From a virus: 35,841 bases of DNA. Positions 1-35,841 of this stretch are shown here, in pieces. The stretch's first letter is position 1. Each line of letters begins with the position of its first letter. The translations under genes were made by a program, and so were the position numbers. Where the stretch lies: the IMG/VR virus record IMGVR_UViG_3300011126_000024, positions 1 to 35,841 of that record; one strand, given 5' to 3'. A model generated the notes under the pieces. It was not told the DNA's origin and did no database searches. It worked only from the letters and a program-made list of their open reading frames with translations.

Positions 1-278
1 TGGTTATATCTTTCCCCTCCTGCGGTTGTCTCTCTAACCTTTGCTAACTTCATTCCTGCGAAGTTTCTATTAGCCTTGTATAGTTTGCTTGTCATATTAC
101 CGCTTTCTAATCTTATTTGTGCTAGTACTATATTAGGGTGTTTTACTTCTTGTCGGATCAATTCCTTTAGTACTTCCTCTTTAGTTTGTGCTTTTACTTT
201 CAATCCTAGCAATAGTAAAATGACTACTGCAAAGAATAGCGGTAATTTATAACCGCCCTCTATTAATTTATTTCTCAT
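1..278 (-). CDS. Glucosaminidase, N-terminal part (continues at 35841 across the contig ends)
   Basis: This is a peptidoglycan hydrolase of the endo-beta-N-acetylglucosaminidase type. The ATG is at 278-276. Residues 8-30 form a hydrophobic signal segment ending in KVKA-Q, so the enzyme is probably exported to the periplasm. Residues LAQIRLESGN carry the glutamate expected for the catalytic acid of this family, and NRNFAGMK matches its usual N-x-FG-x-K motif. The frame is open to position 1 and, if the contig is circular, continues through codon CAC into 35840-35694 to give 141 residues, a normal single-domain length. It could act in lysis beside the M15 enzyme, or be carried in the virion. 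It lies after the early genes, far from the main lysis group. Confidence 0.85.
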   Translation of the reverse strand, partial: MRNKLIEGGYKLPLFFAVVILLLLGLKVKAQTKEEVLKELIRQEVKHPNIVLAQIRLESGNMTSKLYKANRNFAGMKLAKVRETTAGGERYN

Positions 279-332
279 TTGTACAAAATTTTGTTTACTT
301 AATTATTAATTTGTAAAGTGTTTTTGTTACAG

Positions 333-640: not shown

Positions 641-698
641 TTATAAAGCATTAAAACGCTTTATAACTGATTAGAGATAGCATTAAAACGCTACATCT
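641..698 (+). repeat. Paired octamer dyads D and C, 32 bp apart
   Basis: Copy D is a perfect 9-bp inverted repeat, TTATAAAGC (641-649) and GCTTTATAA (658-666), around ATTAAAAC (650-657). Copy C has ATTAAAAC at 682-689 with arms AGATAGC and GCT-ac-ATCT. The cores are exactly 32 bp apart. The stretch between them carries ATAAC (663-667) and AGATAG (675-680), both also present between copies E and B. The pair fills the 72-bp gap upstream of the 371-604 gene. Confidence 0.75.
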
Positions 699-907: not shown

Positions 908-1046
908 AATAATTGTTTTCTTTGTTTCTATCTGTGTTTAATCTTAAACTTCCATTCTTAAAAAAGTAGTTCCTTGAATACTTCAACAAGTATAAAGTTG
1001 CTCTAAGTCTGTTAATACTATTCTTTTTAACTCTATACTTCTTCAT
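900..1046 (-). CDS. Small basic ORF overlapping both neighbours
   Basis: A 48-residue basic ORF starting MKKYRVKKNSINRL and ending NNYYD. The ATG at 1046 lies inside the end of the DUF3310 gene (14-bp overlap) and the stop overlaps the next start by 8 bp. It exactly fills a 125-bp gap that would otherwise be non-coding in a tightly packed operon. No family is recognised. Coding status rests on fit and composition only. Confidence 0.5.
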   Translation of the reverse strand: MKKYRVKKNSINRLRATLYLLKYSRNYFFKNGSLRLNTDRNKENNYYD

Positions 1047-1425
1047 TGTTCAAGTGTTTTAGTTCTCTTTTTGCGTAGTCTATTATCTTCTCTAAGTCTT
1101 GCTTGTCTTGTCCTTTATCTCTAAGTAGGTACTTTAATATATTACCCTCGTTAAAGTTTAAATTCCAATGCTTAACTAGGTCGATAACATCTAAACCGTC
1201 AACCGTTCTAGTTGTGTAGTGTTGTGGTTTGTCGTTTTTGCAAGACATTATCTCTGCGAATTTGCCGTCCCATAAACAGTATTCATAATCATCATCACTA
1301 AGACAGAACCACGCTTCATCAAATTCTTGTACGTGATTAACTCCTTCAAATTCAGTTCCGAATACACTTACTACTTTCTTAGCATCCTTAAAATACTCTT
1401 TTACTTCTTCTAGTGTTGGTTTCAT
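1033..1425 (-). CDS. DUF3310-domain protein
   Basis: A 130-residue protein. Its C-terminal half (HYTTRTVDGLDVIDLVKHWNL, then NILKYLLRDKG and a helical DLEKIIDYAKREL) matches the DUF3310 pattern common in phages: a histidine, an xDVI-type helix, an N-x-x-KYL-x-R segment and a closing helix. The N-terminal 65 residues are acidic and aromatic and I do not recognise them. The molecular role of DUF3310 is not established; it is often found with nucleotide metabolism genes. A structured RNA (1440-1541) and a promoter-like box (1554-1561) precede this gene, so it may be under RNA-level control. It heads a short operon with two small ORFs. Confidence 0.75.
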   Translation of the reverse strand: MKPTLEEVKEYFKDAKKVVSVFGTEFEGVNHVQEFDEAWFCLSDDDYEYCLWDGKFAEIMSCKNDKPQHYTTRTVDGLDVIDLVKHWNLNFNEGNILKYLLRDKGQDKQDLEKIIDYAKRELKHLNNEEV

Positions 1426-1439
1426 AATCTAATATTTAA

Positions 1440-1541
1440 AACCTCCCTAGCCACTTTAACGAATTGATTGCACTTTGCAGATTCGAGGCTTAATAAAATG
1501 AGTTTATGCTTTTGGCTTTAAATCTCGTGGCTAGGTTGGTT
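1440..1541 (-). ncRNA. Structured RNA leader upstream of the DUF3310 gene (candidate cis-regulatory RNA)
   Basis: A 9-bp perfect stem joins 1446-1454 with 1527-1535. Across a 2x2 internal loop it is extended by AACC (1440-1443) with GGTT (1538-1541). Inside are a hairpin with GAAT/ATTC and TGCA/TGCA pairings (1461-1484) and a second with ATAAA/TTTAT (1493-1507). The layout suggests a branched fold closed by one long stem. It starts a few bases after the expected start site of the 1554-1561 promoter and ends 14 bases before the ATG at 1425. No T-run follows, so a plain terminator is less likely. I do not recognise a known riboswitch or tRNA. Confidence 0.55.
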
Positions 1542-1553
1542 AATTTCTTAATA

Positions 1554-1561
1554 CAAATGTA
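1554..1561 (-). promoter_or_regulatory. Bacteroidetes-type -7 box (TACATTTG)
   Basis: The minus strand reads TACATTTG, a full match to the TAnnTTTG consensus of Bacteroidetes housekeeping promoters. No TTG is seen at the usual -33 distance. Instead the paired TTACCG element lies 26 bp upstream. Expected start near 1547, just before the structured leader. Confidence 0.55.
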
Positions 1562-1587: not shown

Positions 1588-1625
1588 AAAGTGACAAGCG
1601 GTAATATAGGTTTATAAGTGGTAAG
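1588..1625 (-). promoter_or_regulatory. Paired TTACCG element, copy 1
   Basis: On the minus strand box 1 is CTTACCACTTATAAACCT (1625-1608) and box 2 is ATTACCGCTTGTCACTTT (1605-1588), starting exactly 20 bp apart. Box 1 overlaps the stop codon of the cytosine methyltransferase gene. The same two-box layout, with the better-conserved GTCA box second, recurs at 10781-10818 and 7933-7970. Confidence 0.6.
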
Positions 1626-5286: not shown

Positions 5287-5306
5287 AGTATTAATATTAA
5301 ATATAA

Positions 5307-5349
5307 AACCCCTGTACAGGAGGAGGACAGTCCAACCTATACAAGGGTT
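5307..5349 (-). terminator. Long hairpin between mazG-like and DUF6291-type genes (terminator or attenuator)
   Basis: A 14-bp stem with two G-U pairs (AACCCTTGTATAGG with CCTGTACAGGGGTT on the minus strand) encloses a 15-base loop that itself contains GGACTGTCC. It is followed by TTATATTT. It ends about 20 bases before the ATG at 5286, so it may stop readthrough from the helicase-methyltransferase unit or regulate translation of the replication genes. Confidence 0.6.
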
Positions 5350-5402
5350 ATTAAAAATACTTCTTTAATCCTGTCCGATTAATAAATACGAAGTTAATTA
5401 TT

Positions 5403-5691: not shown

Positions 5692-7875
5692 TTAAAATAG
5701 TTTTAATGTTGATTCCATTTCCTCTACACAAGCCTTATGGTTTTTAGCATTTAATGAAAAATAACTTTCTTTTAATTCTATACTTATAGACTTCCTATTC
5801 ATTTTCATTGCTTGAAACCCCTCACTACCAATACCTCCAAATGGGCTAAATACTGTTTCTCCTTCGTTACTATACAAATGTATTATTCTTTCAATAGTAT
5901 CTAATTGCAAAGGACAAATGTGTTTCTCGTCATTACCATCTCTACCACTTCTATACTGCAATGTTCTTGAATAGTCAATATCATACCATACTGGACTTGC
6001 ATATTTTTGCCACAAGTCAACAGGTAAATAGTCTAGTCCATTTTGATCAGTATCTTGATGAGTTATTGGAGTTTCATTTTCTCCTTCATTTCTGAAAAAC
6101 AAAACATAATCTGGAATACCTACTCTAGTCATTACACTATCCTTTTTAATTGTCTTGTGCAATAGTCCTAGTGCTTTAGTTCTTTGCATTTCAGTTACTG
6201 GATTCTTCCAAATTGTAACCTTTGAATGATAAATAAAACCTTCATTTTGAAACCAATCTATAAGCATTCCGCTAAAGTCTCTCAATCCAATATAACCCTC
6301 TTTACCTTTTTGAATTGGCAAGTCCATACAATGTACTCCGCATATCCTACCACTTTTTAAAACCCTCTTTAGTTCTGGTATTAAGTATTTAAAGTGCTTT
6401 TCAAACTCCTTATAATTACTTACGTTACCCATATCCTCTTCTTTGTCTGAATAAACATATAACTCTGCAAATGGTGGGCTAAATACAACTAAGTCAGCTG
6501 AATTATCATCTAACTTTTTGCTCTCTTGTACGCAATCCCCATTTAATAAGTGATACTTATCTGTTTTAATTTCTCTTTGATTAATCATAAATTTAGATTT
6601 ATTTGTTTTGTAATTTGATTCGCTTGAATATTTAGACATTTCTTGTATCATTTCAAGGTGTCTTTGTGCTTTTTCTAAAATTGTTTTTCTAACATTAACT
6701 TGTGATTCTGGTACAAGAATATGAACTTTAACTTTATTCTTTTGACCAAACCTATAACAACGTCTAACCGCTTGATAAAATGCTTCAAATTTAAAATCAT
6801 AAGAAGTAAATACCATATTACTACATTGCTGGTAGTTCATTCCAAATGATGCTATTGAAGTTTTAGTAATTAAGTTTTGAAATTCATTTTTTGCAAATCC
6901 ATTCAAATTCTTTGCTTTAACTTCTGGCTTATCTGAACCTTGAACATTAATAGAGTTATTAATTACTTTATTTAATTCTTTCGCTTCATCATTTTTCAAA
7001 GTCCATATTATCCACTGTTCATCAGATCCATTAACTAGTTCCTTAGTTTTCTCAATTCTTAATTGATAACTTCTTTTAAGGTCTTTATGTAGGTCAGTAG
7101 CACTTACTGCAACATCTCCAAATAATGTATTAGTATTGTTTTCTACTGGTATAATATGTTCTATAAACTCTATATCTGGTAAGTTATATCCTTCAACTTC
7201 AAATCCTAGTGTTGCAGGTTTATCACAAGCCATAGACCAAGTGCATACATAATTCCAGAATACATCCTTAGCGTGCTTTCTTAATCTCCATTTACTTGTT
7301 TCCCCTCCATCGTGTACAAAGAACATTGCTAGCATTTCTAAATAACTCATAGCCCCTAAAAATTCACTATGCTGACCTAACTCCATATGGTCGTTTGGAG
7401 ATGGTGTAGCAGTACAAGCCAACTTATAAGGAGTTGATTTAAAGTTATTAATTATAAGGCTTGATAGTTTTCCGTCTTTACCTTTTAATATACTACTCTC
7501 ATCAATTACTACACCTCCATAAATAGAGCAATCTATATTTTTTAATTGATCAAAATTAATAATATCAAAACTATCTAAATTAACATTGAATTTATTAGCC
7601 TCTTCCTTAGTTTGTTCTACTACTGCTAATGGTGCCAGTATTAATACTTTCTTTTTTGTATGGTTGAAAACTGCATCAGCCCAACTTAACTGCATTAATG
7701 TTTTACCTAAACCACAATCAAAGAACAATGCAAACCTACCCTTTGATAATGCCGTTTTAACTGCATACTTTTGAAAGTCAAATAGATTAGAGTTTAATTG
7801 ATTCTCATCAATTTCAAATCCACTTTCTATAAAAGTCTTTCTTTTTGTTTTTAAAAAATCTTTGTAATCTGTCAT
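5692..7875 (-). CDS. Fused SNF2-type helicase and N4/N6 DNA methyltransferase
   Basis: A 727-residue two-domain protein. Residues 30-400 form an SF2 helicase-like motor: Q-like FDFQKYAV (32-39), Walker A DCGLGKT (53-59), VIDESS (123-128), CTATPSP (154-160) and the motif VI QAVRRCYRFGQ (368-378). Residues 440-720 are a beta-class amino-methyltransferase with motif IV SPPF (466-469) before motif I FSPFGGIG (676-683); SPPF favours N4-cytosine, but N6-adenine is possible. No nuclease motif is seen, so modification or anti-restriction is more likely than restriction. It has its own promoter-like box (7904-7910) and a TTACCG element upstream, and is followed by the mazG-like gene. Confidence 0.85.
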   Translation of the reverse strand: MTDYKDFLKTKRKTFIESGFEIDENQLNSNLFDFQKYAVKTALSKGRFALFFDCGLGKTLMQLSWADAVFNHTKKKVLILAPLAVVEQTKEEANKFNVNLDSFDIINFDQLKNIDCSIYGGVVIDESSILKGKDGKLSSLIINNFKSTPYKLACTATPSPNDHMELGQHSEFLGAMSYLEMLAMFFVHDGGETSKWRLRKHAKDVFWNYVCTWSMACDKPATLGFEVEGYNLPDIEFIEHIIPVENNTNTLFGDVAVSATDLHKDLKRSYQLRIEKTKELVNGSDEQWIIWTLKNDEAKELNKVINNSINVQGSDKPEVKAKNLNGFAKNEFQNLITKTSIASFGMNYQQCSNMVFTSYDFKFEAFYQAVRRCYRFGQKNKVKVHILVPESQVNVRKTILEKAQRHLEMIQEMSKYSSESNYKTNKSKFMINQREIKTDKYHLLNGDCVQESKKLDDNSADLVVFSPPFAELYVYSDKEEDMGNVSNYKEFEKHFKYLIPELKRVLKSGRICGVHCMDLPIQKGKEGYIGLRDFSGMLIDWFQNEGFIYHSKVTIWKNPVTEMQRTKALGLLHKTIKKDSVMTRVGIPDYVLFFRNEGENETPITHQDTDQNGLDYLPVDLWQKYASPVWYDIDYSRTLQYRSGRDGNDEKHICPLQLDTIERIIHLYSNEGETVFSPFGGIGSEGFQAMKMNRKSISIELKESYFSLNAKNHKACVEEMESTLKLF

Positions 7876-10780: not shown

Positions 10781-10818
10781 TAAATGACAAACGGTAAATA
10801 ATAATGATAAGCGGTAAA
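10781..10818 (-). promoter_or_regulatory. Paired TTACCG element, copy 3
   Basis: On the minus strand box 1 is TTTACCGCTTATCATTAT (10818-10801) and box 2 is TTTACCGTTTGTCATTTA (10798-10781), exactly 20 bp apart. This is the best-conserved copy. It lies between the late terminator and the early promoter. Confidence 0.65.
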
Positions 10819-18984: not shown

Positions 18985-18991
18985 CAAAGTA
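18985..18991 (-). promoter_or_regulatory. Promoter-like box TACTTTG adjoining octamer copy B
   Basis: On the minus strand TACTTTG (18991-18985) directly follows copy B, within CCTACTTTGGT, a block shared with element A. It lies 85 bp upstream of the ATG at 18900 and after the terminator at 19056-19090, so it is the likely start of the portal-connector-lysis transcript. Confidence 0.45.
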
Positions 18992-19043
18992 GGGAGCGTT
19001 TTAATGCTATCTACTGACTGTTATGCACCGTTTTAATGGTGCA
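18989..19043 (-). repeat. Paired octamer dyads E and B, 32 bp apart
   Basis: On the minus strand copy E is TGCACC-ATTAAAAC-GGTGCA (19043-19024), a 6-bp perfect dyad, and copy B is CTAC-at-AGC... with core ATTAAAAC at 19005-18998 and arms AGC/GCT extended by GTAG/CTAC. Cores are 32 bp apart, as for D and C, but in the opposite genome orientation. The stretch between keeps ATAAC and AGATAG. E has different arms from the other copies, yet they stay complementary. Confidence 0.75.
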
Positions 19044-19055
19044 AGTATTAAACAT

Positions 19056-19090
19056 AAAAGCCTTACCCAAATTAATGAGTAAGGCTTTTT
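19056..19090 (-). terminator. Terminator after the tail-tube candidate (possibly bidirectional)
   Basis: AAAAGCCTTAC (19056-19066) and GTAAGGCTTTT (19079-19089) form an 11-bp stem with a 12-base loop. T-runs occur on both strands. It lies 24 bp after the stop of the 19114-19638 gene, and separates the capsid block from the portal block. Confidence 0.75.
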
Positions 19091-19113
19091 AGATTTACAC
19101 CCTCCTTTATTGT

Positions 19114-34740: not shown

Positions 34741-34985
34741 TATAATTTTATTCTATTGTAAATACTATTCACTAAGTAAAGTATAATAAATATTGGATTT
34801 TGTGTAACCAATACTAAAAGCACTCCTAACCACCAACTTAAACACGTTTCACAGTTAAAAGGTTTATAGGGTATTAACTCCCTACCTACCATATTGGGTA
34901 ATTCATTACACCATACTTGTATTAATGTTAAAGCAATAAGCAGTAAACCTATTTGCTCAACTCCTAATTTTATCAAAAATTGCAT
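34740..34985 (-). CDS. Small two-helix membrane protein
   Basis: An 81-residue protein with two membrane helices (about 8-26 GVEQIGLLLIALTLIQVWC and about 50-72 WWLGVLLVLVTQNPIFIILY) separated by a short loop with KPFNCETC. A P-F-N-C-x-x-C motif before the second helix is common in small phage and bacterial membrane proteins. It starts 29 bp inside the sigma-like gene. Function unknown. Confidence 0.65.
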   Translation of the reverse strand: MQFLIKLGVEQIGLLLIALTLIQVWCNELPNMVGRELIPYKPFNCETCLSWWLGVLLVLVTQNPIFIILYLVNSIYNRIKL

Positions 34986-35460
34986 CTAATCTTATTTTTA
35001 AATTACTTCTACTTATTCCTGTGTTATTTGCTAGGTTAGACATAGTTAAATTCAAAGCCATATACTCTTGTAAGGTTCTACGCTCTAAAGTAGATAAGGT
35101 TTTGAATATCTCATTAACTCTGTCTCTTGGCGTTTGCTCTATCTCTCTAGTAAAGTTGTGTACATCTTCTAACTCCACACTATTTATTATTTGATAGTCT
35201 CGGTAAATTGCTTTAAAGTTGGAATTGTTAACCCCTCCTACTGGTACTCCGTTATTGCTATTCCATTTAAACCACGCTATCCTAAAAGCATAGTCGAGTA
35301 ACTTCCCTCTATTATGTAAATCTATAATATCTCCCTCCTCTTTCTCTAGTAGTACAAGTAGAACCTCCTGCGCTAGGTCGTCTTTTAGTTGGTTGTTATT
35401 GCTAACTACCTTGCAAATCTTATAGACCTCTTTACTAATCTCTGCTATTATTTCTTTCAC
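34957..35460 (-). CDS. Sigma-factor-like transcription regulator
   Basis: A 167-residue protein with a sigma-70-like plan. Residues 5-40 (IAEISKEVYKICKVVSNNNQ, then LKDDLAQEVLLVLLEKEEGD) fit region 2; residues 120-165 (LSTLERRTLQEYMALNLTMS, NLANNTGISRSNLKIRLDAI) form a helix-turn-helix like region 4. The start is GTG (35460); the promoter-like box is so close that the mRNA may be leaderless. It heads the late region (packaging and structure genes), so it is the likely switch for late transcription, perhaps acting on promoters of the TACTTTG type. Confidence 0.75.
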   Translation of the reverse strand: MKEIIAEISKEVYKICKVVSNNNQLKDDLAQEVLLVLLEKEEGDIIDLHNRGKLLDYAFRIAWFKWNSNNGVPVGGVNNSNFKAIYRDYQIINSVELEDVHNFTREIEQTPRDRVNEIFKTLSTLERRTLQEYMALNLTMSNLANNTGISRSNLKIRLDAIFDKIRS

Positions 35461-35503: not shown

Positions 35504-35692
35504 TTATAACTTCTCTAAACTACCTTTAAACCTTAAACATGGGTTGCTCTCTCCGTTGTAATCTAAAGGAGGTGTAACATCAAATAGTACTAAGTAAATA
35601 GTGCTTTGCCCGTCTTGACTAGTTATAACTTTCATAACCTCTCCTTTACCTAAAAAGTCATCTAGTACTAAATCTCCTTTCTTTATAAACAT
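35504..35692 (-). CDS. Small phage protein, unknown function
   Basis: A 62-residue protein with a beta-barrel-like composition (MFIKKGDLVLDDFLGKGEVM, TSQDGQSTIYLVLFDVTPPL, CLRFKGSLEKL). The K-G-D-x-V-x-D pattern suggests a small SH3-like fold, but no family is certain. It starts one base after the glucosaminidase stop, in the same transcript, and precedes the sigma-like gene. Confidence 0.6.
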   Translation of the reverse strand: MFIKKGDLVLDDFLGKGEVMKVITSQDGQSTIYLVLFDVTPPLDYNGESNPCLRFKGSLEKL

Positions 35693-35693
35693 C

Positions 35694-35841
35694 TTAAAAC
35701 TCTTTTAACTTCTCTATGTATGTTTTACTCTCTGCGTAACCTATCTCTTCTAAGAACTCGTAATAGTCTCCACCATCATAATAGCAGTCTTGCCATATCT
35801 TTAAATCTTTAACACAGTCTTGCCAGTTGTTATACCAAGCG
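35694..35841 (-). CDS. Glucosaminidase, C-terminal part (joins 1-278)
   Basis: The frame is open from the right edge to TAA at 35696-35694: WYNNWQDCVKDLKIWQDCYY, a D-G-G-D-Y-Y-E-F-L-E-E-I-G-Y-A stretch, and YIEKLKEF. The W-x-x-S/N-W-x-x-C-V-x-D and G-Y-A-x-x-x-x-Y-x-x-x-L pattern is the C-terminal half of glucosaminidases. It fits in frame onto the left-end fragment with codon CAC at the join. Confidence 0.85.
   Translation of the reverse strand, partial: AWYNNWQDCVKDLKIWQDCYYDGGDYYEFLEEIGYAESKTYIEKLKEF

Follow-up and report, generated by a model that had tools for sequence, protein, structure and literature searches.

A conserved three-way-junction RNA, probably a new family of leader elements, upstream of differing genes in uncultured tailed phages of Flavobacteriia-like hosts

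Three-way-junction riboswitch aptamers (e.g. the purine riboswitch) lie in the 5′ leader and consist of a closing stem (P1), two inner hairpins and conserved junctions. The put antiterminator RNA of phage HK022 is likewise structured, and it lies near early phage promoters and is gene-independent. T4-type phages have mobile regulatory cassettes (Arbiol et al. 2010, as cited in PMC4177764). In these, an early promoter and an RNA stem-loop reportedly stand upstream of exchangeable genes. To our knowledge, structured regulatory RNAs of Bacteroidota phages are scarcely catalogued.

Here we describe an RNA element at 1440–1541 (minus strand) of an uncultured phage genome. It shared with three-way-junction riboswitches P1, two inner hairpins, conserved junction strands and placement before a start codon, but had no Rfam riboswitch match, and its downstream genes did not belong to one pathway. 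As reported for the T4-type cassettes, an RNA structure stood upstream of exchangeable genes; unlike them, the element had a conserved core within a three-way junction, was found in unrelated phages and sometimes lacked the promoter. With put it had in common a structured RNA near early promoters and gene independence, a likeness of layout. The element is thus like a leader switch in layout, yet outside every known class searched (Rfam 15).

The window, that is the whole stretch of DNA analysed, was an IMG/VR virus record of 35,841 bases with nearly all genes on the minus strand. A 141-aa gene ran across the joined window ends (35692–35841 plus 1–280, minus strand), indicating that the genome was circularly closed in the assembly. 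Minus-strand genes encoded terminase, portal, tail proteins, endolysin, Erf, SSB, a helicase-methylase fusion, a DnaB-like protein, NinG and a methylase, and the gene order at the locus was NinG, methylase, then the element and DUF3310. Terminase relatives (~40% identity) were from Bacteroides, Parabacteroides and Flavobacterium phages, and helicase relatives from Flavobacterium and Riemerella phages. The gene at 5692–7875 (minus strand) encoded a SNF2/ResIII-type helicase and an N6/N4 methylase as one protein; in L250, one of the contigs described below, a helicase and a methylase-like protein were encoded by adjacent genes. The gene at 34957–35460 (minus strand) gave a weak match to the phage sigma-factor family phrog_1740 (E 1.7e-06).

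Upstream of the DUF3310 protein gene (1033–1425, minus strand; 130 aa; PF11753, E 1.1e-08), a Bacteroidota −7 promoter box, TACATTTG, was recognised in the sequence at 1554–1561 (minus strand). The box has its last G at −5 in F. johnsoniae (PMC6847099). With this distance borrowed for the window, transcription would start at ~1549, eight nt ahead of P1, giving a leader of ~124 nt. All parts of the element were on the minus strand. The 5′ arm of P1 (1527–1541), supported by fold and covariation, started 12 nt after TACATTTG and was followed by the P2 hairpin (1500–1526, from the fold), which had a GNRA tetraloop in 7 of the 10 distinct copies, the window's own not among them. Next came J2/3 (1486–1499), a conserved single strand with the family consensus AnUUUrUUAAGmCU following ACUC, and the P3 hairpin (1460–1485), comprising the covarying P3a and P3b, a loop AnAGU and a 4-nt 3′ bulge. 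J3/1 (1455–1459), UUAAA, was invariant in all copies, and the 3′ arm of P1 (1440–1454) led into a run of four U. The translation initiation region, from P1 to the AUG, occupied 1426–1439 (14 nt; 12–18 nt across the 11 copies), with the start codon at 1425. A first-pass annotation had described a leader of about 120 nt between the box and the ATG at 1425, with a 13-bp closing stem, at least two inner hairpins, the start site just 5′ of the stem and the start codon just 3′ of it. This geometry was borne out in each part, P1 (1527–1541/1440–1454) having 13 bp, arranged as 9 + 4 bp around a 2×2 internal mismatch (AACC-AA-CCUAGCCAC / GUGGCUAGG-GA-GGUU).

The fold of the window sequence was more stable than 200 of 200 shuffles (z −2.93). 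In the alignment of all copies, which was fitted to the model and so leans towards the structure, 94.5% of cells were paired. Compensatory (both-side) changes occurred in 17 of the 31 pairs, not all of them independent since the copies were few and related; despite this kinship, P1 was represented by four distinct sequences and P3a by six. When partners were slid by 1–3 columns, only 30–48% of cells were paired, and the double changes fell from 52 to no more than 6. None of 500 shuffles reached the observed value for paired cells, for double changes or for the covariation score. RNAalifold run on an unfitted plain MAFFT alignment recovered P1, P3 and the tip of P2. Both sides changed in all five P3a pairs and two of the three P3b pairs, and 9 of 15 P1 pairs covaried. 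P2 was nearly invariant, so that the evidence for it was conservation, one double change (in L002) and the tip loop. The outer four pairs of P1 were predicted to close with a probability of ~0.4–0.5 in the window context, against 0.5–1.0 in the relatives. Invariant or nearly so were ACUCA, UUU[A/G]UUAAG[A/C]CU, the P3 loop AnAGU and UUAAA. The first-pass annotation had staked its proposal on conservation of the stem in relatives, and the fold was indeed kept there with compensatory changes. G-U cells outnumbered A-C cells in the alignment (10 versus 2), which together with the GNRA-type loops indicated that the functional RNA strand was that of the genes; an antisense RNA or a DNA-only palindrome was disfavoured on the same grounds. 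The element is therefore a conserved, structured RNA of the sense strand.

Eleven copies (10 distinct) were found, all in uncultured phage contigs, with one clear copy per contig. A search with the DUF3310 protein led to L002, in which the leader stems differed and the layout was the same. Scanning viral contigs for patterns yielded L077, L050, L125, L277, L285, L250, L280, L407 and L411; a paired 8-mer pattern returned mainly chance palindromes, plus L077 and L050. Seven copies went into a covariance model (R1), with N put at gap positions to hold the alignment register. L002, absent from the model, was recovered at 74.9 bits (E 6e-15, R1 E-values being rough), and L411 and L407 scored 102.5 and 92.9 bits. 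BLAST with the element detected no relatives in cultured phages and plasmids. Host genomes at family (0/397), order (0/396) and phylum level (0/395) contained none under strict filters, a weak test run without a cellular positive control. A pattern scan of genome contigs yielded, among the matches listed, no locus that was a member when rescanned with the model, and a literature search of titles and abstracts, with subscription journals mostly uncovered, gave no description of the element. These results strongly supported a real, uncatalogued structured leader RNA. Our main reading, to which we give a probability of about 0.55 as a whole, is that the element belongs to a new RNA family in tailed phages of Flavobacteriia-like hosts and is a cis-acting leader that works through P1, the state of its core setting downstream expression.

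Rfam 15 gave no hit at the gathering threshold for the window, and for those copies that were searched at E ≤10, only low scores were obtained, below every gathering score and inconsistent between copies. A known riboswitch or ribozyme was rejected as having no Rfam support, e.g. SAM_alpha (11.4 bits, E 5.7) was not repeated in the relatives, and no tRNA was found by ARAGORN. The first-pass annotation had matched no known class by eye and had proposed an Infernal search with Rfam; this search agreed with it, as no family reached threshold. It had further likened the geometry to that of a riboswitch or protein-binding leader. The layout was compatible with either. A conserved aptamer-like domain was present in the 5′ leader, as expected of a riboswitch, but the downstream genes had no common metabolic theme. 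P1 was followed by 4–5 U, as in an intrinsic terminator, but in place of a short unconserved loop there was a core of ~70 nt with invariant unpaired blocks.

The gene downstream of the element encoded a DUF3310 protein in the window and L002, a 59-aa KYGTTL protein in L077, an N6/N4 methylase in L125 and L407, a SNF2-type helicase in L250 and L411, a DnaA C-terminal-domain (DnaA_C) protein in L277 and L280, and a product of 136 aa in L285; in L050 it was unassigned, the contig stopping there. Thus, no fewer than five unrelated types of gene followed the element, which was portable between genes, with all copies lying among replication and DNA-modification genes. Three related contigs, those of L003, L004 and L005, had DUF3310 homologues with no element in front, because their copy sits before a methylase gene, a gene of 136 aa or a SNF2-type helicase gene. 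The helicase encoded in the window itself, 34% identical to the L250 one, had a promoter region of similar kind (ACTTTGTATTAACAAAA) but lacked the element, and L050 contained a methylase and a DnaA_C-like gene, both without one. A DUF3310-specific riboswitch was therefore rejected, and the earlier suggestion that a ligand could point to the role of DUF3310 found no support. The element appears to be a new, portable gene-control element that lies ahead of widely differing DNA-handling genes, and its presence once per genome before differing genes raises the question of which infection event needs one such RNA, whatever gene follows. Single copies among replication and DNA-modification genes would also suit an origin of replication that employs its transcript or its fold a single time in each genome. 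We regard this as very improbable, since the sense-RNA signals (G-U pairs, GNRA loops) and the nearly constant start-codon spacing argue against it; GC skew across the window, with all genes pointing one way, was uninformative and showed no switch.

A promoter box, TAnnTTTG, lay 12–25 nt upstream of the element in 7 of the 11 copies; the other four lay 5–12 nt after a stop codon without an adjacent box. The gap from P1 to the start codon was 12–18 nt in all 11 and left no space for a promoter, indicating that transcription from upstream must cross the element. This narrow spacing, together with placement after a promoter or a stop codon, suggests that the element acts on the next gene. A serious rival, which we consider unlikely, is a phage trans-acting small RNA of ~110–125 nt that would have its own promoter and be terminated by P1 and the U run. 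Such an RNA would fit the single clear copy in each contig, the circularly closed genome of the window among them, as well as a downstream gene that is not fixed, the promoter box in 7 of 11 and the terminator-like 3′ end. These points have to be set against the four copies just past a stop codon and against the gene start, which is always ≤18 nt away with no promoter between, so that full termination would silence the gene. A candidate RNA that acts in cis on RNA polymerase, for antitermination or control of elongation by analogy with put or nut, would also fit the occurrence once per genome, just past promoters or between early genes, whatever the gene; no known antiterminator RNA in Rfam was related to the element, and we think this quite improbable.

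The elements of L077 and L050 were identical, and in L050 ~1.1 kb of small genes lay between promoter and element. This difference in spacing from the same promoter indicated that element and promoter are separate modules. Such free combination of promoter, element and gene would also be expected of a structured 5′ leader with a passive role, either as a stabiliser that protects mRNA ends or as a shuffling cassette that marks recombination joints of modules, without sensing anything. For a stabiliser, a stem alone would do, but here the unpaired junction and loop positions were conserved and the stems variable, making this explanation improbable.

In the cis-acting leader that we favour, a variable P1 would hold the conserved three-way-junction core (P2, J2/3, P3, J3/1). 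A phage or host protein, or less probably a metabolite, would set how the core folds; this would decide whether P1 closes, and closed P1 would lower expression of the next gene through termination at the U run or hindered initiation. The differing gene partners, and a family seemingly confined to one phage group, make a protein the likelier signal. The 4–5 U into which P1 ran stood immediately ahead of the translation initiation region. A plain terminator-like hairpin of L285 had the same outer flanks (AACTAACTAAAGCC / GGCTTTTTAATTAAAC) as P1 of L125. The window had a simple terminator-like hairpin after SSB, with no promoter ahead of the next start codon, in the position that the element occupies in L125 and L280. 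In P1, U run and flanks the element thus resembled these phages' own simple intrinsic terminators but had a structured, conserved core of ~70 nt in place of the short loop, suggesting that P1 may plausibly serve as a partial terminator whose loop holds the core. The shortness of the U runs (4–5) and the modest predicted closing of the outer P1 pairs in the window context count against this reading, and a competing antiterminator pairing was looked for and not found. Structure near the start codon lowers initiation in Flavobacterium (PMC6847099), so that translation control by P1 is equally plausible. A single clear copy per contig and changing downstream genes would be unusual for a gene-specific switch. 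More tentatively, the family may be a phage-only class of sensor RNA, present once per genome and moving between replication and DNA-modification genes, in which the core in the loop of a terminator stem would combine sensor and terminator in one fold. Rfam has no model for the family, and its strong covariation, conserved junction residues and defined position make it ready for direct testing.

Two operator-like repeats (TTACCRCTTRT) lay upstream of the promoter at 1594–1604 and 1614–1624 (minus strand), and a second such pair at 10787–10817 (minus strand); both pairs were spaced 20 bases. With at most one mismatch the motif had 13 matches in the window, against 4.45 expected, and L002, L077, L285, L250, L407 and L411 also had similar repeats ahead of the element. 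Judged from the sequence, such pairs near promoters in the window and its relatives are possibly binding sites of a phage regulator.

Two other gaps of the window were predicted to be structured. Before the DUF6291 gene, 5287–5402 (minus strand) contained a 14-bp terminator-like hairpin (z −3.3) whose inner CUGUCC was complementary to GGACAG in the loop of an upstream hairpin; this gap may hold an attenuator of another kind. The structure at 18988–19113 (minus strand) was very stable (z −6.3), with a 14-bp terminator-like hairpin and, after it, small hairpins. AGCATTAAAACGCT was repeated exactly, with clustering near the left end (338–351, 647–660 and 679–692, plus strand) and at 19.0 kb (18995–19008, minus strand); within two mismatches it had 6 matches against 0.5 expected.
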